DNA of 64,000 bases from Lachnospiraceae bacterium (GTDB lineage Bacteria; Bacillota; Clostridia; Lachnospirales; Lachnospiraceae): positions 62,001 through 126,000 of the forward strand of contig JAILQX010000018.1 in NCBI GenBank assembly GCA_024698705.1, written 5' to 3'. Numbering within the stretch: position 1 is the first letter of the stretch; the number at the start of each line of letters is the position of its first letter. The translations under genes were made by a program, and so were the position numbers. The notes beneath the pieces are model-generated. The model did no database searches. It saw nothing but the letters and a program-made list of their open reading frames with translations, and was not told where the DNA came from. This document shows, piece by piece, positions 16,463 through 57,067 of the stretch.

Positions 16463-16478
16463 TTGACTTTGCTATTTT

Positions 16479-17219: not shown

Positions 17220-17225
17220 ATATTC

Positions 17226-21622: not shown

Positions 21623-21645
21623 ATTATTCTCTCTTTAATACTTAA

Positions 21646-21732
21646 TCAAATCTTTCTTTTATGAGCAGGATTTCCCGCCATAAGCGCCATGCCTATGGCA
21701 CCGGTCGGACCGGTTATGACTGCACCTTTCAA
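21646..21732 (-). pseudogene. 5' fragment of the epimerase gene (duplicated by insertion)
   Basis: TTG at 21732 starts a frame matching the first 17 residues of the 15043-15957 epimerase (KGAVITGPTGAIGMAL). It then departs into unrelated sequence and stops after 28 codons. It is the truncated end left when the cassette entered between the ThDP gene and the epimerase gene. Confidence 0.85.
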
Positions 21733-22426
21733 ACCAAAACCTCACATTCATTGATAATGCGTCCGCATTAGTTTCAATCTCTGATCTTATTGCTCTCATA
21801 TTCTTCCCTGCTTAGGAAAGGATACATATCATCCGGCTCAGGTGATACTATCCTTCCGTCCGGAAGTACTTTAGAAGACAACTTCGGTTCAAAGTTCTGC
21901 TTTTCATCAACAAACACCTCACACATGCAGGGTCCTTCCGAATCAAGCAGTTCTGTTATAACCTTCTCGATATCTTCCTCTTTGTCTATCTTTACATATG
22001 GTATGTCAAATGCATAAGCAACTTTACCAAAATCCGGGAAGCTCACACCATTGCCGTCGCATACACCTACAAGCGGTGGCTTGAACAGGTTTTTCTGTGT
22101 CTGTCTGATCGAATGATAGCCGTTGTTGTTCATGATGATGATCTTCAGGTTCAGATTGTTGTATCTGACTGTCTGGAGTTCCTGAATGTTCATCATAAAT
22201 GAGCCATCACCGTCGATACAGATCGTTCTCTTGCCGTTTCTTGCAACGCATGCACCCAAAGCCGCCGGGAATCCGTAACCCATTGCCGCACAGCCCGAAT
22301 TGGTAAATAATCTCTGTCCCTGCTTTATCTCGGAAGCCTGGAATGTGATAACGCACGCTCCGCCATTGCCGCAGATGACTGCGTCATCACTGTCAAGCAT
22401 TTTCGAATACTCTTTTATAAATACAT
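21680..22426. repeat. Direct repeat, right copy (747 bp, full length)
   Basis: The intact version of the repeat at 15905-16462. The lengths agree exactly once the 189-bp deletion in the left copy is allowed for (558 + 189 = 747). It contains the last 216 or so codons of the 632-residue ThDP enzyme and the first codons of the epimerase. The copies match from ATAAG at the low-coordinate edge to AA(C/T)ACA at the high edge. Confidence 0.92.
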
Positions 22427-23672: not shown

Positions 23673-25261
23673 TGATACAATGACTCCGTTACGTAGATTA
23701 CGGGCATGTTAAGTTTTATCTTGGACATGCTCTTCTTAACATCCGCATTTATTTCCATAGCAAGTTCTTTGCTGAAGGTATGCTCCATATTGGCATTGAT
23801 GTAGTTGGGAAGTGCCGTCTTCTCATAGCCGTCGAAGCCCGCGAGAGCAACCTGCTTTACATCCATATCATTCAAAAGCTTTATGAGCATTATCATCGGG
23901 TTATCAACTATCAATGCTTCTTCATCAAGAAGTTTGCTGTAAGAGAATATATAATCAAACGCCCCTTCGGCCTTGGTCACATTGCTCGTTGCGATAAGCT
24001 TTACATCTTTTTTGCTTATCTTTGTTGCCTGCGCGACATATCTCTTCGCATTACTCAAAAAAGCATATTTTACATCATACTCTTCAGGTATAAAGTTAAT
24101 GGATATTATGATCGGTTTGTGCTCTCCGATATATGTATCCACACGATCCTTCTGCGAATATATCCTTTTGCCGGGTCCGAGAAGCAGTATGTCATTACCG
24201 GCCAGTACTTTTTTAAGCTCTGCAAAATCAACCGTATCATCGCATTCCCTGTTCTGATACTGTACATACAGACTCTCTATATAATCCTGATCGTACAGAA
24301 GCTTTTTCTCGCCTTCTAGCTTCGCCAGGATATGATTTATGGAACTCATGGACAGTTTCTTCTTATCCATGAGATATGTGACATAGTTAGGATGACAGTC
24401 ATTTGATGCCGATACAAAGAACTTAAGGTTATATCCCCATGGTATCTTATGATATATATCCATAATGGTCACATCTATGGCTTCAAGCATCTGATTGACA
24501 TGATAACGCTTATCAAGATGGGTATTCATGTAGTTAGCGAGCAGTTCTATCGGTGCATTACCGGCGCTTTTTCCCATGCCATACAATGTTCCGTCCACAA
24601 GAAGATTCCTGTCTCCCACGGCCGATTCGATGAGTTCCACACAATTGGCAAATGCAAGCTGGAAATTATTGTGAGCATGATACCCGAGTCTTATATCGAT
24701 ATTCAGGTGCTCATTGGCAAAATTGTAATAATGCATCAACTGCTCTTTATGCAGCAAGCCATATGTATCCACAAGCGAAAATGCATACGGATCCAAATCA
24801 TTTACCAAATCGATGAGTTCCGCAAGTTCCCCATCGTTGTAGCTGGTGATCGATACTGCCTGTGTAAATACTTTATATCCGAGTGCCTTTATCTGCTTCA
24901 TGTAAGCAACAGCTTCATGCATCTTAGCCTTCTTAAAAATGACTCTTATGCCATCCATAACCGTCTCGCTCTGTGGTTGTATCAGGCTGATATCGCACGT
25001 ACCGTAATCTATCATACCGACAACCTGCGACTTTCCTTTATCCAGATGTCCATAGAGTCTATTCATCCCCTCTGTTCCCGGGGTGATACTTCTGTTTACA
25101 TCAAATTCGCGCCTGTCATCCATGAAGCCTATTTCTATGAAATCAACTTCCGAACTGACCAGACGCTCAAAGAGTGTCACTATGTTGTCCTGACCGAATT
25201 CCCAATCGTTAACATATCCGCCGTCTCGCAGCGTACAGTCAAGCAATTCTATGTTTCTCAT
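23669..25261 (-). CDS. DRE-TIM aldolase fused to an unknown C-terminal domain
   Basis: A 530-residue protein. Residues 1-330 are an HMGL-like DRE-TIM aldolase: LLDCTLRDGGYVNDW (about 5-19) has the Arg-Asp pair, LGYHAHNNFQLAFAN the metal histidines, and DGTLYGMGKSAGNAPIEL the loop. Residues 340-530 form a second, Rossmann-like domain beginning NDILLLGPGKRI and continuing with strands IIISINFI, VKLIATSNV and QVALAGFDGYEK; this recalls DUF115/MptE-like domains, but I cannot name it. It overlaps the ThDP enzyme gene by 4 nt. The paired enzymes probably build or remodel an oxo-acid or branched sugar, and the extra domain may bind a nucleotide or sugar substrate. Confidence 0.82.
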   Translation of the reverse strand: MRNIELLDCTLRDGGYVNDWEFGQDNIVTLFERLVSSEVDFIEIGFMDDRREFDVNRSITPGTEGMNRLYGHLDKGKSQVVGMIDYGTCDISLIQPQSETVMDGIRVIFKKAKMHEAVAYMKQIKALGYKVFTQAVSITSYNDGELAELIDLVNDLDPYAFSLVDTYGLLHKEQLMHYYNFANEHLNIDIRLGYHAHNNFQLAFANCVELIESAVGDRNLLVDGTLYGMGKSAGNAPIELLANYMNTHLDKRYHVNQMLEAIDVTIMDIYHKIPWGYNLKFFVSASNDCHPNYVTYLMDKKKLSMSSINHILAKLEGEKKLLYDQDYIESLYVQYQNRECDDTVDFAELKKVLAGNDILLLGPGKRIYSQKDRVDTYIGEHKPIIISINFIPEEYDVKYAFLSNAKRYVAQATKISKKDVKLIATSNVTKAEGAFDYIFSYSKLLDEEALIVDNPMIMLIKLLNDMDVKQVALAGFDGYEKTALPNYINANMEHTFSKELAMEINADVKKSMSKIKLNMPVIYVTESLYQ

Positions 25262-38471: not shown

Positions 38472-40223
38472 TTATTTCTTCAGTCTGATCTTTTCATCCT
38501 TCACTTCATATATCAGATCACAGTTTTCTATGGTCCTCAACCTGTGGGCAATTATCACCAGTGTTTTCTGTCCGTGCAAGGCATCTATTGCCTCCATGAT
38601 CGCGGTTTCGGTATCATTGTCAAGCGCAGATGTGGCTTCATCAAATATAAGCAGCTCGGGATCATGATACAGCGCCCTTGCGATCCCAAGTCTCTGTCTC
38701 TGTCCGCCCGATATCCTGACTCCTCTTTCACCGATCATGCTGTCAAGGCCGTCAGGCTGTTCTTCGACAAACGTTTTCATCTGAGCCTGTTCAAGAACCT
38801 TCCAGACTCTTTCGTCATCTATCTTGTCCGGTTCGACACCGAATGCGATATTTTCCCTTATCGACGCATCGAGCATATATATGCTCTGCGGGATATATCC
38901 CACATGAGAGAGCCACATCGCATAATTGCTCATTATATCCCTGCCGTCGCTGGTCACGGTTCCCGCCTGTATCTTAAGCAGTCCCAGCAATATGTCTATG
39001 ATCGTCGTTTTACCCGACCCGGAAGGTCCGACAACACCGACAGACTTTCCTACCGGTATGACCATCTCCGCATCTGTAAATATATTCTTACTCGTATTGG
39101 GATAAGCAAATGTGATCCCCTTAAGTCTGATCTCTTTCTTAAGTGTCAGCTCAGTCGTATTTGGATTCTCACGTCTGTTCCTGTCGATCTCCTCCTGTTC
39201 CCTCATGGCCGCAGTATCGATATTTGCGTAAATATAATCGAGCGCAGGCTCGTAATACGCAATATTTGCCATATATGTGTTAACACGGTTAACACTTGGC
39301 AAAAGCCTCATAGCCGCAAGTCCGAAAGCGGAAATAAGAGGTATCATCCTGCTCGTGCTGACACCTGCTGCCATGCTTATACCTACATATCCGAGTATCC
39401 CGACGATAGCCACCGTTTCGAGCAGCTGTCTCGGAAGATTGCTCAGTACATTGTTTACGACCTGATAATCTGCGTATTTCTTCGCTTTTTCCCTGTATCT
39501 GTCCGTACAGTAATCTTCTTTTGCCAGAACCTTGACATCTTTTATCCCGGTGACCGGCTGAAGTATCCACTTATAAAGCCCTGCCTGTTCCTCCCTCGAA
39601 CGGTCTCCTACGTGGCTCAGTCTCGGCTTTATGACCTTCATGATTATCAATGTGGTGATGCCAAGAAGACCGACAACAACGATCATCATCTTAAAATCTA
39701 TGATCAGTAAGAATACTCCCAGACATACACTTACGACGAGTTCAGCTGCCAGATTCATGCATTGGAGCAGCAGATTGAACACATTGTCCATGTCACCGTA
39801 AATGGTTCTGATGATCACCGAGGTTTCGGCATATAAGTAGTATTCATAAGGTCTGTGCAGAAACTGTGACAGAAGATTTGTGGTGCATCTGCTCCTGTTT
39901 TTGTTGACAAACCTCGACTGAAGATATGTCAAAAGCACAAGGTACGCATTTTTAATGATGAACATCAGGATAAGCGCTGCGATCAGCAGATATATCAATG
40001 TCCTGATATTGTCTATATGTAACAGTTCCCTGCAATATACCACATACTCATTTGCCGCAAAGCTTTCCTCATCCATGATCGCCGAGATCAACGGCACTAC
40101 AAGAGATACTCCCGCAGTTTCGAGAAGACCGCCTATAAGTATCATGACCATAAGTCCCGCTATCTTAAGCTTCTGGCCTTTATCCAATATGGAATTCAGC
40201 TGTTTTATCACTTTAGGACTCAT
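38472..40223 (-). CDS. ABC exporter, fused permease-ATPase (MsbA/PglK type), third copy
   Basis: A 583-residue half-transporter. Six helices are followed by the ATPase: Walker A GPSGSGKTTIID, signature ISGGQRQRLGIARAL, Walker B LLIFDEATSALD and H-loop IIAHRLRTI. It differs from the usual LSGGQ by Ile in the first position. It overlaps the SDR gene by 4 nt and is transcribed toward the polymerase and WbaP genes, so it is the best placed of the three exporters to flip the undecaprenyl-linked repeat unit. Confidence 0.9.
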   Translation of the reverse strand: MSPKVIKQLNSILDKGQKLKIAGLMVMILIGGLLETAGVSLVVPLISAIMDEESFAANEYVVYCRELLHIDNIRTLIYLLIAALILMFIIKNAYLVLLTYLQSRFVNKNRSRCTTNLLSQFLHRPYEYYLYAETSVIIRTIYGDMDNVFNLLLQCMNLAAELVVSVCLGVFLLIIDFKMMIVVVGLLGITTLIIMKVIKPRLSHVGDRSREEQAGLYKWILQPVTGIKDVKVLAKEDYCTDRYREKAKKYADYQVVNNVLSNLPRQLLETVAIVGILGYVGISMAAGVSTSRMIPLISAFGLAAMRLLPSVNRVNTYMANIAYYEPALDYIYANIDTAAMREQEEIDRNRRENPNTTELTLKKEIRLKGITFAYPNTSKNIFTDAEMVIPVGKSVGVVGPSGSGKTTIIDILLGLLKIQAGTVTSDGRDIMSNYAMWLSHVGYIPQSIYMLDASIRENIAFGVEPDKIDDERVWKVLEQAQMKTFVEEQPDGLDSMIGERGVRISGGQRQRLGIARALYHDPELLIFDEATSALDNDTETAIMEAIDALHGQKTLVIIAHRLRTIENCDLIYEVKDEKIRLKK

Positions 40224-41068
40224 GGCATGTATTCTCCGCCCGATAAGTTAAGATTGGCACCGTTCATGTATGAAGCTGCATCCGACATCAGAAATTCAAT
40301 GGCAGCTACCGTTTCCCCGACCTCACAAAGGCGCTGCATATGCGAGTTCTCCTTCGTCATTTCGAGGATCCTTTCATCCACAGCGCTTAAGAATTTTGTA
40401 TCCATCATTCCGGGAGATATCCCGTTGATATTGATCCCTTTTCCGGCGTACTCCGCCGCAGCACCTTTAAGATATCCTAAAAGCGCATATTTGCATGCTG
40501 TATAATGGCTCATGAATTTGGGCGGCACACCGAGTGTGACCGAACTGAGTACGGCAACAACCTTGCCGTATCCGGCCTTTGACATGAGCGGTAAAAAGGC
40601 ACTGCATATCTCCGCAAATGAAAAGTACGTCACTTCCATGTCTTTTCGTGCTTTCGTGCCATCCCATTTCTTTATCTTCATAAAATCATAGTTTGATGCC
40701 GCAAGATGAAGAATATGCGTGGGGCATACACCTTCTGCTACAAGTCCTTCTGCCATAGCCTTTACTGAGACCGGATTGGCAAGGTCAACCTGTTTTTTAA
40801 TGATCTTGGTATTGCCTGTCTGCCCGGTGGCCGTATCTTGTCCGTTTTCATCAAACTTCCCGCAGTTTTGTTCCTGCATGTTTTCACCAATCTGCCCGCA
40901 GGTCTGTTCCTGCTTATTGCCAAATGACCCGCACACCGCCTTAAAAGCATCACTTTCGGTACGATAGCATGCTATTATCGTTTTGGGATCTGTATTATTT
41001 TTTAATTTTTCAATGTAAGCCATGCCCACTTCAGAGCTTGCTCCAAGGATCAGATAAGTATTGCCCAT
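40220..41068 (-). CDS. SDR-family oxidoreductase with a repeat-containing insertion
   Basis: A 282-residue SDR. GNTYLILGASSEVGMAYI is the cofactor loop, LHLAASNY the strand-4 motif, and SSVTLGV...MSHYTACKYALLGYLKG has the serine and Y-x3-K. SGGEYMP ends it. Between the beta-2 region and the next core strand lies an insert made of imperfect 12-residue units (QEQTCGQIGENM, QEQNCGKFDENG). The frame extends to 41110, but ATG 41068 has GGGAAGA upstream and begins the fold. An extended -10 promoter lies about 75 nt upstream. Next to a MaoC hydratase and an acyl carrier protein, it may be the ketoacyl reductase of an acyl-building module; an NDP-sugar role is the alternative. Confidence 0.8.
   Translation of the reverse strand: MGNTYLILGASSEVGMAYIEKLKNNTDPKTIIACYRTESDAFKAVCGSFGNKQEQTCGQIGENMQEQNCGKFDENGQDTATGQTGNTKIIKKQVDLANPVSVKAMAEGLVAEGVCPTHILHLAASNYDFMKIKKWDGTKARKDMEVTYFSFAEICSAFLPLMSKAGYGKVVAVLSSVTLGVPPKFMSHYTACKYALLGYLKGAAAEYAGKGININGISPGMMDTKFLSAVDERILEMTKENSHMQRLCEVGETVAAIEFLMSDAASYMNGANLNLSGGEYMP
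40838..40937. repeat. Imperfect tandem repeat within the SDR gene (about 36-bp units)
   Basis: Two to three units of about 36 bp, each holding GCAGTTTTGTTCCTGC-like sequence, encode repeats with a central Cys-Gly (VCGSFGNK, TCGQIGENM, NCGKFDENG). The insertion is in frame and outside the catalytic motifs. Confidence 0.75.
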
Positions 41069-41140
41069 TCTTCCCTTTCTCCGGATTTTGGTAGACAAAT
41101 CGAAAACCATGATCTGTCATCCTAAATGCCCATTCTATCT

Positions 41141-41149
41141 ATTATACCA
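41141..41149 (-). promoter_or_regulatory. Extended -10 promoter upstream of the SDR gene
   Basis: TGGTATAAT on the minus strand is a perfect TGnTATAAT box. It lies about 75 bp before the SDR start and inside a 145-bp gap after the MaoC gene. There is no strong -35 box, which extended -10 promoters do not need. Confidence 0.45.
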
Positions 41150-41213
41150 TTGTTCCCTGTTTTACTCCAGTATGCCCACTCGGACGGATTCACTATCCGC
41201 CTGTATGAATTCT

Positions 41214-41633
41214 TCAGGCGTCCAGCACACCCATCTGCATGGTTCCGCGAAGCACTTTATCACCGGAAGCGTTTACAACGGTCACCTTCATGTCAAATAT
41301 CTTGAATTCCTCATTTACATCGCTGACCTCACCCGTGACAGTCAGCTCATCTCCGGGAAACACCGGCTTCTTGAATTTCACTTCAACTTGCCTGATCAGG
41401 CTGTTCTCTCCGGGCAGATACACGCCTGCAAGCGCACTTAGAAACGAGGCTGTAAGCATGCCGTAAGCAACTTTTCCTTCAAAGCCTTTTTTCACTGCGA
41501 AATCATCGTCAGTATGCAGCGGATTGATGTCACCGGTAATATTTCTGAAACTGTTCATCATTTCTTCGGTGATCTTGACCGTGAAGCTTGCCTTCAATCC
41601 CACCTTTATATCTTCAAATCTGTATCTGTTCAT
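41214..41633 (-). CDS. MaoC-like (R)-specific enoyl hydratase, hotdog fold
   Basis: A 139-residue single hotdog-domain protein. NITGDINPLHTDDDFA (about 31-46) fits the hydratase-2 signature, with the catalytic Asp35 and His40 spaced D-x4-H. AYGMLTASFLSAL and VFPGDELTVTGEV are the helix and strand that follow. It would add water to a trans-2-enoyl thioester to give an (R)-3-hydroxyacyl thioester, or the reverse. It is unusual in a capsule locus. With the adjacent SDR and nearby acyl carrier protein and MBOAT, it may supply a hydroxyacyl decoration. Confidence 0.85.
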   Translation of the reverse strand: MNRYRFEDIKVGLKASFTVKITEEMMNSFRNITGDINPLHTDDDFAVKKGFEGKVAYGMLTASFLSALAGVYLPGENSLIRQVEVKFKKPVFPGDELTVTGEVSDVNEEFKIFDMKVTVVNASGDKVLRGTMQMGVLDA

Positions 41634-41974
41634 TGTTTTTACATCCTCTGTGTTGCAGTTTTAAGATTCTTATTCTCTTTCCGGCACTTGTATCTTAATT
41701 TCTACCGCCAAATCCCCGGGATTTGACTCTTAAACCCACTGTTTTAAGATTATTTATGTGTATTTTTCTTTTCTATCTTAATTTCTTCCGGAAATTGCTT
41801 TCTTGTTTTACTTTTTTAAGATTTTCCGTCCTTTTTCGACGTCTGTATCTTACCCTCATCCATTTAAGCTCATGTTTTTAGGTCTTTTCGCTGAAAATTT
41901 AAGATTTCAATCGTGATATAAGCACTTGTATCTTAACTCAAGTCACCCTCATCCCATAAACATGAGAAATATGA
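41634..41974. promoter_or_regulatory. 341-bp intergenic region with four evenly built inverted-repeat units
   Basis: No gene is visible. It holds four units of TTAAGAT-N24-ATCTTAA at 41661-41698, 41744-41781, 41816-41853 (last base C) and 41899-41936. In all four, the half-sites start exactly 31 bp apart. Unit starts are 83, 72 and 83 bp apart; 31, 72 and 83 are near 3, 7 and 8 helical turns, so all half-sites face the same side of the DNA. Between the units lie palindromes AAATCCCCGGGATTT (near 41717) and TTCCGGAA (near 41789). It separates the MBOAT and MaoC genes. Confidence 0.85.
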
Positions 41975-43699
41975 TCAGAATCCCTGGTATATAAACTCAG
42001 CCGCATCATATCCCGGACCGTAGTTTCCGAGCAGTATTACGACAAATATAAAAGCAAGTATGATGATCCATCTCACTGCTATATTCTGCCTTGCGATCAC
42101 ATCTCTCACATCCTGTTTTACTGCACCGGCTTTAGCACCCTGTTTTGTTACGGTAACTTCAGCACCATGCTTCAACACGCCTTCTTTACTACCCTGCTTT
42201 TCATTTATCAATGACATGATCCACAGCAATAGCATTGAAAGCGCAAGGATGACCCAATCTTTCAAGGCCAGCAGAGCGAAGATGTTACCGCCGGGTACTC
42301 CGGGATCTCCGAACGCATGAGCTTTTGCCGTCCATCCCGTAAGGATCCTTCCAAGCATACGCCATCCGTCTGTCAGGCTCCCTGCGTTGAAAAACATAAA
42401 TCCAAATGATATCAGCAGAAATGTCCTTATCTGTTTCAAAAGCTTTACAACCGCTGATCCGATGTCGAAAGACGGGGCTGCGGTTTTATGCACTTCTTCT
42501 TTCTTTGAAGAGGCCAGTCTGTCTTCGGCCTGTTCTTCTTTCTTTGAAGAAGTCGATCTGTCTTCTGACTGTTTTTTCCTACGTTCTTTTCCGTGCTTTT
42601 CCAGTTGTTCTCCAACGATTATGTAGATGCATTGCAATATGCCTGTACCCCAGATATATTTCCATGCACCGCCATGCCACAAGCCCGAACAGCACCATAA
42701 TATAATAAGCGCAAGATACGTGGTCCGCTGCTTTGCTTTCTTCCTGCCGTATTTTGCAGTGAGTTTTTCCTGCATATTCATGAATCTGTCGGTTCTCAGC
42801 AAGGGATAAAGGATGTAATCCCTTAACCACGCACCAAGTGTTATATGCCATCTCTGCCAGAATTCCCGGATCGTACATGAAAAGAAAGGCTGTCTGAAGT
42901 TTTCAGGCAGATTTATGCCCATCGCTTCTGATATGCCCATTATGATATCCATGGATCCGGAGAAATTTGTATATAGCCTGAACGTAAAGAGCAGCGCCGC
43001 CACAAATACATGTGAACCCGGATAATCACTGTAGTTCTCGAATACCGGACGCACTGCCGTTTCCAACCTCTCGGAAATAACAAGGACCTTAAAGAAACCT
43101 ATGATGATCCTGCCAAGTCCGTATGTGAATTTTCTGTAATCAAAGCCGTGCCCTTCAATAAGCTTTCCGTTCATTTCCTTATATCGCATGATCGGACCGC
43201 TTACAAGTACAGGGAAATACATACCGAACAAAAGCAGTTTAAAATAATTTTTCTCCGGTTTGCCTACCTCATAATACACGTCAAAAATATACGAGAGTAT
43301 CGACATTGTATAGAATGATATTCCCAGTGGTGCCGGAAAATGCAATACTGCCGGAGTTTCCGCTCCGGGTACACATCTGCCGATAACGGCATTGTATGTG
43401 TAAACGCCGAGATTAAGATACCTTAAGACCACCAGAACTCCGAGGTTTGCCAGAAGCGAAAGCCACAGAAGGCATTTTCGTCTTTTCTTATCCATACCGG
43501 CAGTCATCCTGTTGGTACATATCCATGCGATAAGGATACCGAATACAGGATACAGAATAAGTATCATTTCCCCCGCAAGTGCCGCGTATACAAGGCTGCA
43601 CAGCAAAAGATATGGCCATTTGGCTTTTTTAGGCAGACAGTAATAAAGCAGTATCACCGCTGCAAAGAATCCCATATAAGACAGGGATGTTATACCCAT
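41975..43699 (-). CDS. MBOAT-family acyltransferase (DltB/AlgI-like), with repeat-bearing loops
   Basis: About 574 residues with 10-12 helices. Family motifs: YTNFSGSMDIIMGI, FWQRWHITLGAWLRDYILYP and WCCSGLWHGGAWKYIWG with the essential histidine. Two charged loops are expanded. One has a 13-residue tandem repeat (QSEDRSTSSKKEE, QAEDRLASSKKEE); the other has KQGSKEGVLKHGAEV-type repeats. A GTG lies at 43711, but ATG 43699 has GAGG 7 nt upstream and is preferred. It follows the acyl carrier gene by 8 nt, so the carrier probably hands its acyl group to this protein for transfer to the outside, as DltC does to DltB. Confidence 0.9.
   Translation of the reverse strand: MGITSLSYMGFFAAVILLYYCLPKKAKWPYLLLCSLVYAALAGEMILILYPVFGILIAWICTNRMTAGMDKKRRKCLLWLSLLANLGVLVVLRYLNLGVYTYNAVIGRCVPGAETPAVLHFPAPLGISFYTMSILSYIFDVYYEVGKPEKNYFKLLLFGMYFPVLVSGPIMRYKEMNGKLIEGHGFDYRKFTYGLGRIIIGFFKVLVISERLETAVRPVFENYSDYPGSHVFVAALLFTFRLYTNFSGSMDIIMGISEAMGINLPENFRQPFFSCTIREFWQRWHITLGAWLRDYILYPLLRTDRFMNMQEKLTAKYGRKKAKQRTTYLALIILWCCSGLWHGGAWKYIWGTGILQCIYIIVGEQLEKHGKERRKKQSEDRSTSSKKEEQAEDRLASSKKEEVHKTAAPSFDIGSAVVKLLKQIRTFLLISFGFMFFNAGSLTDGWRMLGRILTGWTAKAHAFGDPGVPGGNIFALLALKDWVILALSMLLLWIMSLINEKQGSKEGVLKHGAEVTVTKQGAKAGAVKQDVRDVIARQNIAVRWIIILAFIFVVILLGNYGPGYDAAEFIYQGF
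42494..42571. repeat. 39-bp tandem repeat in the MBOAT gene
   Basis: Two 39-bp units, each starting TTCTTCTTTCTTTG (42494 and 42533), encode 13-residue repeats in a loop of the MBOAT protein. The unit is a multiple of three, so copy-number change would keep the frame. Confidence 0.8.
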
Positions 43700-43707
43700 G
43701 ATAATCC

Positions 43708-43944
43708 TCACTGTTCCAGTATGCAGTCAACCATCTCACCGACGTTTTCAAAACCCATGATCTGAGCCATTGTGAATTTGACATCAAATTCCTTCTCAAT
43801 GGCAGCTACAAGATTGATGTGCTCAAGTGAATCCCAATCCTCGATGTCATCCGAAGTTGTCTCATCATTCACTTCCAGTTCTTCGTCGTCAAAGACTTCC
43901 CTGAATACATCATTGAGCCTTACATATACTTCTTCTCTTGTCAT
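43708..43944 (-). CDS. Acyl carrier protein (DltC-sized)
   Basis: A 78-residue acidic four-helix carrier. DIEDWDSLEHINLV (about 33-46) contains the DSL motif whose Ser39 takes 4'-phosphopantetheine. The length matches DltC (about 79) as well as fatty-acid ACP. GGAGG stands 7 nt before the ATG. It sits between the GT2-SGNH fusion and the MBOAT gene, the same arrangement as dltC beside dltB and dltD. No DltA-type adenylating ligase is in the window, so the acyl group must be loaded by another enzyme. Confidence 0.92.
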   Translation of the reverse strand: MTREEVYVRLNDVFREVFDDEELEVNDETTSDDIEDWDSLEHINLVAAIEKEFDVKFTMAQIMGFENVGEMVDCILEQ

Positions 43945-44003
43945 AAAAACCTCCGGTTTTATATAAAAAAGTCTTATTAGCTTTCAAAGCCATTGTCAGC
44001 CGA

Positions 44004-45953
44004 TCATTTTTCGATCGGTACTGCCGAGTTATATTGCTCCGTAAAATGCCTGTAAGCCGTGTCCCAGTCGTCAGTAACCGCTTCGGATTTTGGGGAAATG
44101 ACATCATAATTACCCACCACAAACTGCCCGAGAACATCGGAGCACTTTACTGCTCCCCATACATTTGTGTGGGCTCCGTCATCTATGTCGGTCCTGTAGT
44201 CAAAACCCATTTCATCGTACAGAAAATTAAGATCAATAAACTCAAAACCTGCTTCTTTTACTATATCCGAGCAATAATTCATCATCGGTTCGTAATCATC
44301 GGACTCATCTCTGGGCGTCACCACAAATAATGCGTCCAGATCATTTTCCTTCAAAAAAGCAATCAGATCTCTCAGGACCGCTTCTTCACTTGAAGGTATC
44401 GGTTTTCTGTCTTTGGTATAGAGATCGGGCGTTTCTTTTCTGTACCCTTCAACATCGTATTTGAATTCAAATCCCTTATCTGCATTTTTAACGGAATAAT
44501 TGAATTTCTTCCACTCATTCGGTTCAAGCAGCATTCCCAGGTTTGAATGATATTTTATGATATCAAGCTGATATGCATATTCCTTATCGAGCATATCCGT
44601 CATGGCTTTGACGGTTTTTATCCTATGAAGGGAATAACGCATATTATCCACGGTCTCCCTTATATGCCCCTCATCTTCGGCCAGTTCTTCATCTTCCGCT
44701 ATAAATGTCCTCATCTCGATGACTATAAGTTTAGGCTCCTGATATCTCAATCCTTCTTCTATCAGGTATTTGATGGCCTTGGGGCGCTGAGAATTGGATG
44801 AGAGCGGATAAGATGTAAAGCCGTATTTTCCCCACATGTATCCCGGAGAAAAACTGGTAGCTACCGTACTTGACCCCATCATCAGAACATCTATGCTGTC
44901 TTTTTTTTCAGCGTAAAATCCGGCAAATCTGTCCTTTGTATCGCCATTGGTCCTGATTATATATGACACACTCCTGAGTAAGAATAAGAACAGGACCATA
45001 AACAGGATCGCTTTTATGATCCATACCCTGCCTACGGCTTCGGCAAATTCTTTTCTGACCTTACGTTTTGTCTTCCTGTCAGCGGCCTTATACATGTGCA
45101 GGAAACGCTTGATCTTAAATCCTCTTTTCCCGGTGAGTGCACGTTTTCCATAGTCCCAGATCATGTCTGACCACTGTCCGGAATAATCTATTCTTCCGCC
45201 AAAATACTCATTCAGCATCTCAACATGATGCGCCTTGGTGAAGAGATCGAGTTCCATATCGGCATTGGTCGCATTACGTCCGCTTACGGTGTCTCCGTCA
45301 AAGTAACGCCTGTAGGCACTCATATCATCGGGAAGGATATAGAAATCTCCCCTGTCAAGCAGTATGGAAAGAACAGTCTTATCCCTGATGAGCCTGTCTG
45401 CTTTGTAAATGATACTGTAATCGCCGCCGTCCTTATAAATATTTCTGTAAAAATGTGTTCCTGTCTGAAATACAAACCCTTTATCAAGAAAATCCTGCAA
45501 AGTAAATCTCTTGCCCAGATAATCCTTTATGGCTTTATTGTCATCATTTTCAACGACATTGCCATCCTTATCAATGATATCAAAGTCATGTGCTACGCCT
45601 ATGTATTCACTGTGTGCTTCCAGGAAATCATACTGTTTCTGAAGCTTATTATCGTCAGTCCAGATATCATCCAATTCGAGGGCTGCAATATAATCGCCCT
45701 TCGCATCCATCATGAGTTCCCACTCATTACGCGTGGCGCCGAGATTCTCATCCCTGTAATACATCCTGAACTTATCCGGATAGCGCTTTTCATATTCCCG
45801 AAGGATATCTCGCGTACCGTCTTTGGAGCAGTCCTCACCGACAAGGATCTCAAAGTCAAAATCCGTCTTCTGGGACAGGATGGAATCCAAAGCCTGTCTT
45901 ATATATAATTCATGATTGTAGGTCACGCATATGACCGAAACCTTCGGTTGCAT
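44004..45953 (-). CDS. Fusion: GT2 glycosyltransferase + membrane helix + SGNH (DltD-like) domain
   Basis: A 649-residue two-domain protein. Residues 1-270 are a GT2 enzyme (VSVICVTYNHELYIRQALDS, EILVGEDCSKDGTRD, ALELDDIWTD). A basic linker and one membrane helix (about 310-333) lead to an outside SGNH-type domain: SIDVLMMGSSTVATSF holds the nucleophile serine, and DDGAHTNVWGAVKC supplies Asp/His. The C-terminal part resembles DltD-like membrane SGNH proteins. So one chain puts a sugar transferase inside and an acyl transferase outside. It lies 59 nt upstream of the acyl carrier gene, and all three genes are co-directional. I know of no standard family with this fusion, though each half is familiar. 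Confidence 0.85.
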   Translation of the reverse strand: MQPKVSVICVTYNHELYIRQALDSILSQKTDFDFEILVGEDCSKDGTRDILREYEKRYPDKFRMYYRDENLGATRNEWELMMDAKGDYIAALELDDIWTDDNKLQKQYDFLEAHSEYIGVAHDFDIIDKDGNVVENDDNKAIKDYLGKRFTLQDFLDKGFVFQTGTHFYRNIYKDGGDYSIIYKADRLIRDKTVLSILLDRGDFYILPDDMSAYRRYFDGDTVSGRNATNADMELDLFTKAHHVEMLNEYFGGRIDYSGQWSDMIWDYGKRALTGKRGFKIKRFLHMYKAADRKTKRKVRKEFAEAVGRVWIIKAILFMVLFLFLLRSVSYIIRTNGDTKDRFAGFYAEKKDSIDVLMMGSSTVATSFSPGYMWGKYGFTSYPLSSNSQRPKAIKYLIEEGLRYQEPKLIVIEMRTFIAEDEELAEDEGHIRETVDNMRYSLHRIKTVKAMTDMLDKEYAYQLDIIKYHSNLGMLLEPNEWKKFNYSVKNADKGFEFKYDVEGYRKETPDLYTKDRKPIPSSEEAVLRDLIAFLKENDLDALFVVTPRDESDDYEPMMNYCSDIVKEAGFEFIDLNFLYDEMGFDYRTDIDDGAHTNVWGAVKCSDVLGQFVVGNYDVISPKSEAVTDDWDTAYRHFTEQYNSAVPIEK

Positions 45954-46846: not shown

Positions 46847-48736
46847 CTATCTGACCTTTCGTACTTCAAACCATCTTGCCAGCATGAGGATCTTCCATAT
46901 TTCCCTGTCTCCCTCACCTGTGGTGATCAGCTTGTTCCACATCTTATCAACAATCTTTTTGTCGATATATTCCCCCATAAGATCGGGGATCTCATCTATC
47001 AGCGTTCTTGCCCATTCTCCCAGTTCATCTCCGGTAAGCCAGGTTTTTAACGGTACCGAAAAGCCCTTCTTGGGTCTGTCCATCATTTCCTGCGGAACAT
47101 ATCTGTACAATATGTCTTTTAATATCCTTTTGGTGGTCTTTCCGTCGTATTTATATTCCTGCGGAAGTGTCCATGCAAATTCCATAACATCCCTGTCGAG
47201 CAATGGTATCCTGCTTTCAAGCGAATACATCATACCGGATCTGTCCACTTTTACCAGAATGTCATCCGGGAGATATTGAAGCATGTCCATGAGCATCAGA
47301 TTTGACTCTGCACCCTCCAAAAATCCGTCATCGTAGGTATTTATCTTATCATCGTAAGCGTCTGCATGCCTTATCAGTTCATCAAGCAGCAGATTGTCCT
47401 CTCTGATGTTGCGGTACCATTTCTCCGGGGTATTTACTCTGAGTACAACCGAAAGCTTATGCATGAATGCATTGTTCCCGCCCGCTTTATAAATGACATT
47501 TCCCAGTGTTTCTCTGGTCTTGCCTTTCAGAACCGGCAATTTCTGCGACAGGATCTCCAGTCCGCGTCTTACGTCCCTGTAAGAATTGTAGCCGCAGAAA
47601 AACTCGTCTCCGGCATCTCCGCTGAGTGAAACCGTCACATGTTCCTTTGTCATGCGGCTCACAAGCATTGTAGGTATCTGGGAGCTGTCCGCAAAAGGCT
47701 CACTGAAGGCAGTCGGTATCTCATCGATTGTATCGAGTATGTCTATTTTTGAAACATACATCTGTGTGTGCTCACATCCGAGATGTTCTGCCGTTTTTGC
47801 CGCGTATACAGCCTCGTTGTAGGTTTCATCCTCAAATCCTATGGTGAATGTCCTCACCGGCTTATCGCTCATGCTCTGCATTAGCGCAACTGTCAGTGAA
47901 GAATCTATCCCCCCGGAAAGAAACGCGCCAAGCGGAACATCTGATATCATCTGTCCTTTTATCGAATTTTTGATGAGTCCTTCAAGGCTTTCGCTCGCTT
48001 CCTCGAAGCTTCCTTTAAACAGATTCCCTGTTCCTTCTTTTGCTACTTTCCTGATATCCCAGTATATGTCATCTTTCCATGCATCGAACGGTTCCTTAAC
48101 GGTCAGAAAATGCCCGGGTTCAAGCTTGTAAATGCCCTGATAGATACTGAACGGAGCCGGTATGTAACCGCCTTTGAAATATGTCCCCAGCACTTTGGTA
48201 TCTATTTTCCGTTCGAATTGCGGCAGACTTTCTATGGACGCAAGGTCTGATGCAAAAACAAATGCTCCTCCTACCATTCCGTAATACAGCGGTTTTTCAC
48301 CCATACGGTCTCTTGCGATATAACAGTATTTTTCTTTTCTGTCATATATCGCAAATGCAAACATTCCCTTTATGCGTTTAAGAGTCTCGGTCATGCCCAA
48401 TCGTTCGACGGCTTCAAGTAACAGTTCCGTATCGGAAGTTCCTCTGAATCTCAGACTCAGGTCTGTTTTTGTCAGTTCATCTGCTATCTCAATGTAGTTA
48501 TATATTTCCCCGTTGAATGTAATGACATATCTTTCGCTTGCACTGACCATCGGCTGGGCACCGTTCTCGCTAAGGTCTATGATAGAAAGCCTTCTGTGTC
48601 CGAAAGCGACCGGCGCTTCAGGGCACAGCCATATCCCTTCCGCATCAGGGCCTCTGTGCAAAACTCTGTCATTCATCTGATGTATTCGGTCGGACACATT
48701 ATCAATATGTCCCAATATACCGTTAATTCCGCACAT
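46847..48736 (-). CDS. asnB: Asparagine-synthetase-like glutamine amidotransferase
   Basis: A 629-residue AsnB-family enzyme. After Met removal Cys2 of MCGINGILGHI is the glutaminase nucleophile; RGPDAEG, FNGEIYNY and GTSDTELL follow. The synthetase half has the PPi loop FLSGGIDSSLTVAL. The frame opens 12 nt earlier, but the ATG at 48736 has AGGGG upstream and places Cys at position 2. AsnB homologues in O-antigen and capsule loci amidate uronic acids rather than aspartate. With a UDP-sugar 6-dehydrogenase at 62-63.7 kb, uronamide formation is a reasonable inference. Confidence 0.9.
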   Translation of the reverse strand: MCGINGILGHIDNVSDRIHQMNDRVLHRGPDAEGIWLCPEAPVAFGHRRLSIIDLSENGAQPMVSASERYVITFNGEIYNYIEIADELTKTDLSLRFRGTSDTELLLEAVERLGMTETLKRIKGMFAFAIYDRKEKYCYIARDRMGEKPLYYGMVGGAFVFASDLASIESLPQFERKIDTKVLGTYFKGGYIPAPFSIYQGIYKLEPGHFLTVKEPFDAWKDDIYWDIRKVAKEGTGNLFKGSFEEASESLEGLIKNSIKGQMISDVPLGAFLSGGIDSSLTVALMQSMSDKPVRTFTIGFEDETYNEAVYAAKTAEHLGCEHTQMYVSKIDILDTIDEIPTAFSEPFADSSQIPTMLVSRMTKEHVTVSLSGDAGDEFFCGYNSYRDVRRGLEILSQKLPVLKGKTRETLGNVIYKAGGNNAFMHKLSVVLRVNTPEKWYRNIREDNLLLDELIRHADAYDDKINTYDDGFLEGAESNLMLMDMLQYLPDDILVKVDRSGMMYSLESRIPLLDRDVMEFAWTLPQEYKYDGKTTKRILKDILYRYVPQEMMDRPKKGFSVPLKTWLTGDELGEWARTLIDEIPDLMGEYIDKKIVDKMWNKLITTGEGDREIWKILMLARWFEVRKVR

Positions 48737-48744
48737 ATTTCCCC

Positions 48745-49509
48745 TCAATGCAGCAGACGCTGCTTTAATGATGACAGATCGGACACAAGTTTCGCTTTTG
48801 TTCCCTTTATCTGTTCACAATCATAATATGTCACCGGTGTGCCACCGAAAAATTCCTTAAACTTTGTAATGTTGGCTACTTCTTCTTCCTTGCCGGCTCC
48901 GCCCCAGTCATATACGGAGAGCCCCTTTGCTTTAAAGTATTTCATTTCCTCAAAATGCAGGGCTCTGTTTGCCATGCCGATCACATTTTTATTTGTATCA
49001 TCAGTGTCATTTTTCAGCCTGAACAGCGACGCCGAATGAAGCAATCTTGTTATATCATCATCATGGATATATGTGTGGTATACGGCGATCTCACCGTTAA
49101 CAACGGCATATCCGACAGAAAATGCACGACTGTCCCTGTACTTCTTAAGTTCTTCCGCAAGTGATTCCCTGTCGCCTATCGATGAATCTTTACTTTCCCA
49201 GAATTCTTCGAAAAAATCCAGAAAATCCTCCAGCGTCTTATCATCTATCTCATCACTATCAAGAATGTGAAACTCCACATTTTCCCTGTATGCCCTGTTT
49301 ACCTCATATCTGCATCCTTTTGAAAAATGAGCTTTTATATCATCTTCACTCTCTTTAAGATCACTTATAAGTGTAATGAATGGTATTGACTGCCCTATCG
49401 GTGCCCTTGCTTCTTTATAATTGATGATCCCGTCGTCATCGATCTCCCTGTCTGCAAACCAAACCGTAATGATCGGAACGGAATGTACCTGTTTCTCAAT
49501 TTTGATCAT
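48745..49509 (-). CDS. FemAB/GNAT-like acyltransferase
   Basis: A 254-residue GNAT-fold protein of the FemAB-like type. DIKAHFSKGCRYEVNRAYRE (about 54-73) matches the 'l..s.R..i.rA' helix of these enzymes, and VNGEIAVYHTYIHDDDI plus YDWGGAGKEEEVANITKFKEFFGG are the strand and phosphate-loop segments. FemAB enzymes use aminoacyl-tRNA or acyl-CoA to build amides. In this setting it could add an amino acid to an amino sugar or uronic acid. It lies 8 nt upstream of the AsnB gene. Confidence 0.7.
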   Translation of the reverse strand: MIKIEKQVHSVPIITVWFADREIDDDGIINYKEARAPIGQSIPFITLISDLKESEDDIKAHFSKGCRYEVNRAYRENVEFHILDSDEIDDKTLEDFLDFFEEFWESKDSSIGDRESLAEELKKYRDSRAFSVGYAVVNGEIAVYHTYIHDDDITRLLHSASLFRLKNDTDDTNKNVIGMANRALHFEEMKYFKAKGLSVYDWGGAGKEEEVANITKFKEFFGGTPVTYYDCEQIKGTKAKLVSDLSSLKQRLLH

Positions 49510-54395: not shown

Positions 54396-56297
54396 CTATT
54401 TAAAATAGTGCTCGTACCACTGTTCAAATACAAAGAATGACCAGCATACCTTTGAGAAATTCTGTCCGGTTGCCGGACCTGCATCTCCGTTTTTAAGATA
54501 ATTTCCTACCATATCTGCGGTAAAAACCGGATCAAACAATCCCTGCCCGACAAGAAAATCCCTGTCGGTATAATCGATCAGTCTTTCCTTTAACGGCCCT
54601 CTCATCCACTTGTCAAGCGGAACACCAAAACCTTTCTTGGGCCTGTCCAAAAGGGTCTTCGGAATATAATCGTGTGCAATATCCTTGAGTATATGTTTTC
54701 TTATCCTGTCATGATATTTGAAATCATGCGGCAGTCTGTAAGAATACTCCATAACATCTTTATCAAGGATCGGGCATCTGCTTTCCAGACTGTATTTCAT
54801 GGAAGCACGATCTACCTTGCACAATATGTCATCCGGAAGATATGTATCCATATCGACAAGCATCCTTCTTTTGAGCCAGTTTTTCTCATCATATCTGTCT
54901 TCGATCTCATATTTGCACGGTACACTGTCCTTGCTAAGCACCATGGCATTTGCCGTTCTGACATATCCCATCGAGCTTATCTGTGATTTAGCAAGTTTGT
55001 TTCTGTTTTCGGATACAACGCGTACCCTGAAAGGGATTTTGTTGTATATGCTTTTATCCTTTAGTCTCAGGAGATTACATGTTCCGTCGACCATTGCCCC
55101 AAGTGCATCAAGTTTCTGTGCCTGGGCAACATTATCATATACATTGTATCCGCAGTAAAACTCATCTCCGCCGTCTCCTGACAGGGCAACGGTCACCTTT
55201 TCCTTGGCCAGTGCCGATACGAGCATGGTCGGGATCTGAGACGAATCCGCCATGGGCTCGTCAAAATACTGCGGTATGCTGTCAACCAGCTTATACATCT
55301 CATCTTCTTCAATATATCTCTCGGTATGCTCCGTTCCGAGATGCGCCGACACCTCAGCAGCATATACGGCTTCGTTATAATCCTTTTCACCAAAGCCTAT
55401 CGTAAATGTTTTGACCTTGGAATCACACACATCTGCTGCTATGGCTGTTATGAGCGAAGAATCATAACCCCCGCTCAAAAAGGTACCTACGGGCACATCC
55501 GATATCATACGCAGACGGACTGATTCCTTGAGCAGACGCTTAAGTTCCTGCTTTGCTTCATTGTAATCCGTAACAGGATCGGCTTTCATTGCAGAGTATG
55601 TCGCATTGACATCCCAGTATTTTTCCTTGCTTACCGTTCCTGCCTTGAATGTCAGTACCGTTCCGGGTTCAAGTTTATATACATCCTCAAATATCGTATC
55701 CGGCGAGAGGATATACTGCTGGTAAATAAATCTCGCCAGCACCCTGTCATTGATATTTTTAACAAACTCGGGGTGCGCCATGATAGGTTTCAGTTCGGAA
55801 GCAAATACAAGGTTTCCCTGTGATCTCCAATAATACAGCGGTTTCTTGCCGATACGGTCTCTTACAAGTATTATCTCCCCCGTTTCCCTGTCATAAAGAG
55901 CGATCGCAAACATCCCGTTGAAACGGTTGAAACAGCTTTTACCCCATTTGAGATATGCCGCTATGATAAGTTCCGTATCACAGGTTGATCTGAACGGATA
56001 ATCGGGAATTTCTTTCTTAAGTTCCAGGTAATTATATATTTCGCCGTTAAAAACAACACTTATCCTCGGTACACTTGTCCCTGCCTCACACGGTGAATGC
56101 ATAGGTTGATGACCGAGCGGCGAAAGGTCGAGTATTGACAGTCTTCTCTGTGCAAATCCCACGGTATATCCGTCACGGCTTTCATATATCTCTTCACCGC
56201 TGTCGTCGGGACCTCTGTGGATCATAAGATCGTTCATGGTCTTCAGTTCTTCGATTGTTATAGGTTTTTTTGATACAAACCCGCAAATTCCGCACAT
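54396..56297 (-). CDS. asnB: Asparagine-synthetase-like glutamine amidotransferase, second copy
   Basis: A 633-residue AsnB-family enzyme. Cys2 in MCGICGFVSKK is the glutaminase nucleophile, with RGPDDSGEE, FNGEIYNY and STCDTELI after it. The ATP-pyrophosphatase half has the PPi loop FLSGGYDSSLITAI, and DRPKKGFGVPLDKW near the C-terminus is typical. It is clearly related to the 46847-48736 enzyme but not a recent duplicate. Two copies in one locus argue against a housekeeping role and for amidation of two different uronic acids, or of the same one in two glycans. Confidence 0.9.
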   Translation of the reverse strand: MCGICGFVSKKPITIEELKTMNDLMIHRGPDDSGEEIYESRDGYTVGFAQRRLSILDLSPLGHQPMHSPCEAGTSVPRISVVFNGEIYNYLELKKEIPDYPFRSTCDTELIIAAYLKWGKSCFNRFNGMFAIALYDRETGEIILVRDRIGKKPLYYWRSQGNLVFASELKPIMAHPEFVKNINDRVLARFIYQQYILSPDTIFEDVYKLEPGTVLTFKAGTVSKEKYWDVNATYSAMKADPVTDYNEAKQELKRLLKESVRLRMISDVPVGTFLSGGYDSSLITAIAADVCDSKVKTFTIGFGEKDYNEAVYAAEVSAHLGTEHTERYIEEDEMYKLVDSIPQYFDEPMADSSQIPTMLVSALAKEKVTVALSGDGGDEFYCGYNVYDNVAQAQKLDALGAMVDGTCNLLRLKDKSIYNKIPFRVRVVSENRNKLAKSQISSMGYVRTANAMVLSKDSVPCKYEIEDRYDEKNWLKRRMLVDMDTYLPDDILCKVDRASMKYSLESRCPILDKDVMEYSYRLPHDFKYHDRIRKHILKDIAHDYIPKTLLDRPKKGFGVPLDKWMRGPLKERLIDYTDRDFLVGQGLFDPVFTADMVGNYLKNGDAGPATGQNFSKVCWSFFVFEQWYEHYFK

Positions 56298-56302
56298 ATA
56301 CT

Positions 56303-57067
56303 TTACCCGGGCAGTTTGGTCCTGTCTAAGAACCAGTCTTTATATTCCACAAAATCCTTACATTCGGCATCTATGCTCTCTATCATCTGAGCGTATTTTT
56401 CTTCGACAAGCGATACATAATTATTGAAGTTGTCATATCCCACTTTATGCCATGCAAAGGGATGTACCAGGATCTGGACCTTCTTATTGTTTAAAATATT
56501 GTTCTCATCGGGATAACCGTATCTCCATATGTGGTTTGCATCGGAAAGATATTTGACATTGACCGGTGTATTCTCATCGACATTTTCAGCGAATGTAAAG
56601 AAATCATCCTGATATGCATTGATAATTCCCGGAAGCTTTATATTTTCCCTAAGTATATCCTTTGAAGGTCGGTGTACGGAAAATGAATCGATCTCAAATC
56701 CGAACATTTCCGAAAGGATATTGATCTCCTTGACGATCTGCTTTCTGACAAGTTCCATATCCGTCATGCCGTTAAGTGCATAATGAAGACCGATCCTCTG
56801 TCCTCTCTCATGCATATCCTTTATCATGTCCATATTTCTCTTTGACAGGATATTGTATGAGTTGTTTGTCCATTGGAAGAAGAAAGTTGATGTAAAGTCC
56901 ATGCTTTCCTCTACCTTTGACAGTTGATATGCTCTCTCGACGCTGTATTCGACATCATGTCTCATGATCACAAAACTGTCGCTTGTCATAGCTTTTTTGT
57001 AATCCATATAGCGTCCGCTGCTTTTGCATATCCTTATGATCTCTTTGTAATCATCATAACTGAACAT
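56303..57067 (-). CDS. Polysaccharide-deacetylase-like protein
   Basis: A 254-residue protein resembling the NodB-like fold. FVIMRHDVEYSVERAYQL (about 32-49) holds the first Asp/His pair (RHDVE form), RIGLHYALNG the next, and IDSFSVHRPSKD and VQILVHPFAWH the later histidine segments. The 'RHDVD' type is common in capsule loci next to asparagine-synthetase-like and GT4 genes. No signal peptide is visible. It overlaps the GT4 gene by 14 nt and lies 5 nt before the AsnB gene. Substrate unknown. Confidence 0.7.
   Translation of the reverse strand: MFSYDDYKEIIRICKSSGRYMDYKKAMTSDSFVIMRHDVEYSVERAYQLSKVEESMDFTSTFFFQWTNNSYNILSKRNMDMIKDMHERGQRIGLHYALNGMTDMELVRKQIVKEINILSEMFGFEIDSFSVHRPSKDILRENIKLPGIINAYQDDFFTFAENVDENTPVNVKYLSDANHIWRYGYPDENNILNNKKVQILVHPFAWHKVGYDNFNNYVSLVEEKYAQMIESIDAECKDFVEYKDWFLDRTKLPG

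Follow-up and report, generated by a model that had tools for sequence, protein, structure and literature searches.

The described systems closest to the locus reported here are the Dlt system of D-alanylation (DltA-DltB-DltC-DltD) and the FkbH-dependent loading of acyl carriers. In bryostatin biosynthesis, the BryA loading module combines FkbH, dehydratase and ketoreductase domains to give a D-lactyl starter. More generally, FkbH yields a glyceryl-carrier from 1,3-bisphosphoglycerate without adenylation (PMC7489565, PMC8949500). On surface glycans, dimethylglyceric acid is found on pseudaminic acid of Campylobacter jejuni flagellin, according to PMC3068675, whose text does not contain the terms acyl carrier and glycerate. 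Here we describe a gene set in the draft genome (2.54 Mb, 54 contigs) of a Lachnospiraceae bacterium (GCA_024698705.1), within a stretch of 64,000 nucleotides (bases 62001-126000 of the 225,506-bp contig C17, JAILQX010000018.1), hereafter the window. We propose, with slightly better than even confidence, that this set is a Dlt-like module for surface-polysaccharide decoration in which a FkbH-family enzyme charges the carrier in place of DltA, and in which MaoC and short-chain dehydrogenase/reductase (SDR) proteins make a lactoyl-carrier.

A Dlt-like gene set without a DltA-type ligase

The polysaccharide locus that houses the module is large and also encodes glycosyltransferases, an initiating sugar transferase (PF02397), a PglK-like ABC transporter and a Wzy-like protein. 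All five module genes have open frames on the minus strand, and their Pfam matches (GT2, carrier, MBOAT, MaoC and SDR) exceed the respective cut-offs. From high to low coordinates, they encode a 649-residue GT2-SGNH fusion (44004-45953), with GT2 at residues 1-309, a DltD-like SGNH domain at residues 312-640 and a hydrophobic, probably membrane-spanning segment; a 78-residue acyl carrier protein (ACP) of the FkbH-partnered type (43708-43944; PF00550, 34.8 bits), with the DSL serine in EDWDSLEH; a 578-residue DltB-type membrane-bound O-acyltransferase (MBOAT; 41975-43711; PF03062, 56.5 bits), with a GTG start and WHG at residue 345; a MaoC-type (R)-hydratase/dehydratase (41214-41633; PF01575, 84.1 bits) with a TGDINPLH motif, the proposed glyceryl-carrier dehydratase; and an SDR ketoreductase (40220-41110; PF13561, 98.6 bits) with S..YxxxK, proposed to reduce the dehydrated intermediate. 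An earlier note on this DNA had listed five co-directional genes at these positions, which the frames, strand, Pfam matches and motifs bear out. Its gene run holds for order and strand, but a 341-bp stretch without a listed module gene splits MBOAT from MaoC.

The earlier note had also described the module as lacking DltA and had named a DltA-like ligase just outside the window as its refutation. The absence extends to the whole contig: a PF00501 (AMP-binding) profile search of its 225 kb gave no match, so that a DltA-type ligase on the same contig was rejected. Elsewhere in the genome, PF00501 matches comprise three on contig C21 and two pieces on C52. One of these, a DltA-like gene at C21 32888-33985, has its own DltC-like carrier; this pair was rejected as the loader, since its carrier is only 24% identical to the window carrier and none of the genome's 10 MBOAT matches lies on C21. 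In contrast, the window carrier is 54-74% identical to 13 carriers from loci of relatives, 12 of them with FkbH in the same stretch (L083 lacks it; G, L and C numbers denote genomes, loci and contigs). In the search for DltC identity, it matched general ACP models only, below the cut-offs of those models. In a separate locus, L018 (6862-10010), a DltA-like ligase and carrier adjoin a gene, presumably DUF4910-like, whose 51% homologue precedes an FkbH-type carrier and MaoC in L083.

The MBOAT is homologous to DltB without being its equivalog (TIGR04091, 144 bits against an equivalog cut-off of 375), and a PDB search with its profile returned DltB and nothing else (6bug, 8jem and their set). In a rapidly built tree of 102 MBOATs, made with the best-scoring MBOAT per locus and assessed by the Shimodaira-Hasegawa-like approximate likelihood ratio test (SH-aLRT) with no bootstrap, it falls in a clade of 24 rows with SH-aLRT 100; L113 was left out as short. 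For this tree and the FkbH tree, partners were assigned manually to L078 and L101, and the window was entered as an FkbH locus. With the window counted, 23 of these rows come from FkbH loci, and the last is L104, a 9.5-kb contig with neither FkbH nor DltA; all 47 DltA-locus MBOATs lie outside the clade. Both the carrier, by identity, and the MBOAT, by the tree, therefore belong to an FkbH-associated subgroup. The MBOAT gene also carries an in-frame 39-bp duplication (42494-42573), in a stretch absent from aligned relatives.

FkbH accompanies the carrier and MBOAT in relatives

Among 145 related genomes, MBOAT searches gave 46 with E<=1e-60 and MaoC searches 20 with E<=1e-20 (own genome counted). 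A close MBOAT homologue (at least 294 bits) is present in 11 of the 145, again counting our own, and all 11 carry an FkbH-family gene at least 56% identical to the copy of the window genome (own copy counted). FkbH lies near the carrier and MBOAT in all ten besides the window genome. In eight of the ten, among them G079, where it sits beside the carrier yet 4.1 kb from the MBOAT, it abuts the carrier or SGNH gene or lies within about 0.1 kb of one of them; it is 2.6-2.8 kb distant in G060 and G005, where in G005 it runs off the contig end. The idea of a set working without a loader is thus not upheld. The identity of FkbH was assessed in G007, G019, G016, G137 and G023, three of them clade-MBOAT genomes, with TIGR01686 scores of 281.8-294.5 bits (cut-off 146.65); a sixth candidate, from L081, is unrelated, and the FkbH of G002 is the gene next to its carrier. 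The HAD motif and the SCRV..R motif are each present in 37 of 39 FkbH proteins. When the next eight MBOAT matches were read, six had a DltA-type ligase (G040, G089, G059, G056, G133, G010), G137 had FkbH and G027 had neither.

A wider sample gave the same division. When 84,980 species, each represented by one genome, were scanned with the MBOAT alignment, at least 590 stretches were obtained, of which the best 80 were taken as loci and scored with hidden Markov models. These models derive from loci of the same groups, and L102, which matches it in length and layout, is apparently the G007 contig used in building them. We chose the thresholds ourselves (FkbH 100, DltA 80, MaoC 80 and SDR 60 bits), the matches to DltA include several weak ones (81-133 bits), related loci cannot be counted as independent, and absence means absence from the DNA stretch examined. 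On these terms, FkbH is present in 14 loci, DltA in 39, both in none and neither in 27. Carriers of the FkbH type occur in all 14 loci with FkbH, those of the DltC type in 38 of the 39 DltA loci and five of the 27 with neither. MaoC follows FkbH (six of 14 loci, against none of the 39 DltA loci, Fisher p=1.3e-4, and none of the other 27), and SDR was found in three FkbH loci, with none in the other two groups. FkbH and MBOAT are about 8.8 kb apart in L147 and 4-6 kb apart in L103 and L106. In Eisenbergiella tayi DSM 26961 (L105), FkbH, carrier and MBOAT occur without a MaoC match over the 21.6 kb examined. A search for FkbH in 398 genomes of the phylum gave 10 matches besides the window genome, and six of these loci were examined: L224 has MaoC and SDR; L217 and L218 each have a carrier with a more distantly related MBOAT; L222 and L223 have a weak carrier, no MBOAT and SDR matches further off; and L219 has FkbH alone on a 7.7-kb contig.

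The GT2-SGNH fusion and the FkbH gene

In G007, the gene order is GT2, FkbH, SGNH, carrier, MBOAT, MaoC, SDR, ABC and Wzy, that is, the order of the window plus FkbH, and in G009 GT2 and FkbH are followed by the start of SGNH and the contig end. The GT2-SGNH fusion reported in the earlier note is present in the window, but G007 and G009 have GT2, FkbH and SGNH as separate neighbours. A tblastn search of the whole window with three FkbH proteins gave a best E of only 0.41. By this comparison of gene orders, the window lacks the FkbH gene that separates GT2 from SGNH in G007 and G009, leaving an in-frame fusion. Both domains are nearly whole: the GT2 half (PF00535, 86.7 bits) is 81% identical to the G007 GT2 over residues 1-309, the SGNH half (residues 312-640) is 66% identical to the G007 SGNH, and the join has cost 2-4 residues of GT2 and about 10 of SGNH by the G007 alignment (24 by that of G019, whose start differs). 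The two halves share no exact repeat longer than 11 bases.

The SGNH half matched neither a Pfam family at E<=1 nor a DltD family model. Its AlphaFold2 model (mean predicted local distance difference test score, pLDDT, 87.5; predicted template modelling score, pTM, 0.90) matched five PDB chains at E<=0.001, belonging to 3bma, 6pfx and 7dxm, with a best E of 1.3e-5 at a template modelling (TM) score of 0.43; we take 3bma, entitled D-alanyl-lipoteichoic acid synthetase, to be DltD. The overlap with DltD structures is weak (TM 0.39-0.46 by query length). Across 11 aligned sequences including that of the window, the Ser and His are invariant and the Asp nearly so.

The sole FkbH found in the window genome lies at C25:33292-35061, is 62% identical to the G007 FkbH and has as neighbours a GDSL gene and PMT-type genes, with no recognised carrier or MBOAT. 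In the FkbH tree, it joins an orphan copy of G001 (100/99) inside a clade of 29 rows, mostly MBOAT-associated FkbH. Since it groups with that orphan and not with the locus copies of G007, G009 and G019, we rejected it as the relocated neighbour gene. By the tree, it is a second FkbH lineage, which could charge the carrier in trans. The loader is most likely FkbH, displaced in the window genome.

MaoC and SDR recur with the FkbH-type module

The window MaoC is 42-66% identical to eight relatives, and the GD.NP.H segment common to the nine aligned MaoC proteins, together with the hot-dog domain, places it among (R)-hydratases/dehydratases. It resembles the (R)-specific enoyl-CoA hydratases 5cpg and 1iq6, and the SDR resembles FabG-like reductases, with Tyr and Lys invariant in eight aligned SDRs. 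Motif searches missed the MaoC of L110, L172, L178, L213 and L214, MaoC scores are low in L172, L178 and L214 (89-91 bits), and the SDR patterns are loose. The window SDR has about 45 extra residues with a duplicated 36-bp unit, in frame (40844-40915), which aligned relatives lack.

MaoC and SDR lie within about 6 kb of the module in six of the 11 clade genomes. They also accompany the carrier and MBOAT in G137, G023, G364, G218, G239, L110, L115, L164, L172 and L178, some of which lack SDR. The earlier note had counted both proteins as part of the Dlt-like set and named as its refutation a failure ever to find them with the carrier and MBOAT in related genomes; this recurrence supports the assignment. 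Full FkbH-ACP-MaoC-SDR-MBOAT runs occur in L212 and L214, FkbH-ACP-MaoC-MBOAT in L110 and L172 (Candidatus Doudnabacteria), and FkbH-ACP-MaoC-SDR in L178 (Flavobacterium psychrotolerans); G218 also has carrier, FkbH, MaoC and SDR genes in one module. In L215, L216 and L224, a MaoC-SDR-FkbH-ACP cassette stands without an MBOAT in the same stretch, although the carriers are weak (36-42 bits), and such cassettes tie MaoC and SDR to an FkbH-loaded carrier. The FkbH-carrier-MaoC set also extends to at least two further phyla (L172, L178), where its MBOAT partners are more distantly related.

In 391 genomes of the class, the MaoC profile gave 19 matches besides the window. FkbH is in the flanks of four (L183, L186, L190, L201) and in the wider stretch, L213, of L184, and the other 14 had no FkbH, carrier or SDR match in 1.5-kb flanks. 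On the FkbH tree, for which long branches meeting were flagged by a warning, MaoC presence is scattered, with 10 changes against a shuffled mean of about 12 (58-63 of 500 shuffles as low). A single origin of the MaoC association was rejected, as it appeared in none of 200 bootstrap trees. This scatter is most simply read as a single loading step, after which the loaded group may or may not be tailored.

Neighbouring genes and repeats

The 341-bp gap (41634-41974), which is not known to belong to the module, contains eight phased TTAAGAT/ATCTTAA heptamers, one mismatched, against about 0.1 expected from their density in the window outside the gap. Their spacing (31, 52, 31, 41, 31, 52, 31) is mirror-symmetric and near multiples of a helical turn. 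TTAAGAT-N24-ATCTTAA units also occur in the window genome (G000) at C20:11020-11212, C21:4521-4558, C21:126427-126619 and C42:13187-13224. Nine exact units were found genome-wide, all with N24 though spacers of 22-27 were permitted, and with variable inner bases; a single copy is present in each of three of 144 other genomes. From their sequence, these gaps look like a putative strain- or species-specific binding array.

Two further groups of genes lie in the window. An asparagine-synthase-like gene occurs twice with a conserved 254-residue protein that has no Pfam match at E<=0.001 (46847-49509 and 54396-57067), and homologues of this pair adjoin the module in L077, L079, L213 and L247; the pairs might form amides on the polysaccharide. 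The stretch 15999-25261 encodes TPP enzymes, an HMGL-like protein, an SDR and transketolase-like proteins, which may build a branched sugar. Near the module elsewhere, their homologues include TPP and HMGL genes in L077 (66-67% identity), an HMGL gene in L081 (69%) and transketolase-like halves (25-33%) between FkbH and carrier in L082.

Proposed mechanism and its alternatives

In the proposed route, FkbH, here encoded elsewhere in the genome, would move the glyceryl group of 1,3-bisphosphoglycerate onto the phosphopantetheine of the carrier. A glyceryl thioester has its sole beta-hydroxyl at C3; loss of this hydroxyl would give the enol of a pyruvoyl group, and ketoreduction would give lactoyl. 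MaoC would dehydrate the glyceryl-carrier through the enol to a pyruvoyl-carrier, which the SDR would reduce to a lactoyl-carrier; in relatives without MaoC and SDR, glyceryl itself would be transferred. Membrane passage of the acyl group would then fall to the DltB-type MBOAT, with the DltD-like SGNH domain assisting in its attachment to the polysaccharide as an ester, by analogy with DltB and DltD. Because the MBOAT profile found only DltB and the closest fold to that of the SGNH half is DltD, the most likely fate of the acyl group is, as in D-alanylation, export followed by ester linkage to the polysaccharide.

Several observations weigh against this proposal. Relatives encode FkbH with the carrier whereas the window does not, so that the C25 FkbH, which is not sister to the locus copies of G007, G009 and G019, would have to act in trans; FkbH without a recognised carrier or MBOAT also occurs (C25, G001, L246). 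Five of the 28 FkbH-locus MBOATs fall outside the clade, L147, L172, L178 and L214 in a distant group and L101 on a long branch. Outside the 80 loci, L217 combines FkbH and an FkbH-type carrier with a weak DltA match (92 bits), and the DltA locus L220 has an SDR match of 215 bits. As regards tailoring, a genome-wide search at E<=1e-20 found no MaoC in five of the 11 clade genomes (G003, G022, G032, G060, G079), and L067 and L068 combine MaoC with a weak SDR match (70-71 bits) but show no FkbH or carrier in their short flanks. In L110, L115 and L164, MaoC is present without an SDR close to the module, and the single SDR match of L172 is 4.8 kb from FkbH; MaoC loci with no SDR near by are unexplained by the lactoyl route. 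In the literature, searched among open-licence PubMed Central papers only, a pathway-tool table in PMC7901079 speaks for a lactoyl product, giving the FkbH step of loading modules as 1,3-bisphosphoglycerate plus ACP to D-lactate-ACP. The reference behind that entry, however, bears a title on glycerate starter units, which weakens the lactoyl proposal and strengthens its glyceryl counterpart, and the retrieved portions of the two papers on bryostatin and FkbH describe no lactyl module.

That counterpart, in which the same FkbH-loaded module transfers glyceryl or another derivative and MaoC and SDR do not make lactoyl, is clearly the less probable of the two but the strongest of the alternatives. 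It would account for the eight of 14 FkbH loci without MaoC and the 11 without SDR, and the literature gives glyceryl-ACP as the FkbH product. However, MaoC and SDR recur beside FkbH and the carrier in distant genomes, and they probably act on the carrier-bound group. The earlier note had proposed that the carrier takes an acyl group other than D-alanine, which is likely; its choice of a fatty-acid-derived (R)-3-hydroxyacyl, such as 3-hydroxybutyryl, made by SDR and MaoC with no dedicated loader, now appears improbable. The likeness of MaoC to (R)-specific enoyl-CoA hydratases and of the SDR to FabG-like reductases speaks for such a group. Yet the set is accompanied by FkbH rather than by an acyl-CoA enzyme, a Pfam scan of 40 proteins, which represent part of the genes in the window, gave no match to a ketosynthase model, and L215, L216 and L224 have MaoC-SDR-FkbH-carrier cassettes without an MBOAT in the stretch examined.

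Two further explanations concern the window copy itself. It might be decaying, with nothing transferred in this strain: FkbH is missing from the window, the C25 FkbH is of another lineage, GT2 and SGNH are fused, SDR and MBOAT carry extra repeated stretches, and a gap splits the operon. We consider this the least probable reading, as the frames are open, the 36- and 39-bp duplications are in frame, the catalytic motifs are kept and the fusion has removed so few residues. An assembly join, with FkbH present in the real locus, is also unlikely. The genome is a draft of 54 contigs, and as the closest MBOAT among the 145 genomes is 59% identical, that set offers no second genome of the species for comparison; but the join is in frame with both domains nearly whole, and no exact match between the halves exceeds 11 bases.

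Returning to FkbH-dependent lactoylation, we suggest more tentatively that a separate DltB-type lineage in Bacillota adds lactoyl (or glyceryl) esters to surface polysaccharides, the acyl groups being built on a carrier from 1,3-bisphosphoglycerate by FkbH, MaoC and SDR without adenylation, as a glycolysis-coupled counterpart of D-alanylation. This would join two systems from different fields, FkbH loading in polyketides and tetronates and Dlt-type acyl export, and would give a function to the FkbH, carrier, MaoC and SDR genes of polysaccharide loci. It predicts base-labile glyceryl or lactyl esters on the polysaccharides of Lachnospiraceae and relatives, and suggests a surface modification coupled to glycolytic flux and not to adenylation.

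Comparison with known systems

A search of open-licence PubMed Central papers gave none that describes FkbH together with a DltB-type MBOAT at a polysaccharide locus. The two papers there on MBOAT with FkbH both concern cyanobacterial peptides (PMC10143770, PMC13122637), and no paper was found for FkbH with O-antigen, for HAD-IIIC with acyl carrier protein and polysaccharide, or for MBOAT with DltB, acyl carrier protein and polysaccharide. Like the Dlt system, the module unites a DltB-type MBOAT, a small carrier and a weakly DltD-like SGNH protein in one gene group. Unlike Dlt, it lacks DltA and has FkbH in relatives, its carrier is of another subgroup, its MBOAT is in a clade of its own, it lies in a polysaccharide locus, and its SGNH is here fused to GT2.

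FkbH together with a stand-alone carrier recalls glyceryl-ACP loading in tetronate, methoxymalonyl and nonribosomal peptide pathways, such as Mad7/Mad8 of tetromadurin; in those pathways, however, the partner is a polyketide or peptide synthase and not a DltB-type MBOAT in a polysaccharide locus. The BryA loading module takes the same three chemical steps as those proposed here, yet within one multidomain synthase and with no transfer to a glycan. The flagellin of C. jejuni, whose locus contains carrier and FkbH-like genes, offers the corresponding likeness on the glycan side, namely a glyceric-acid group on a surface glycan.

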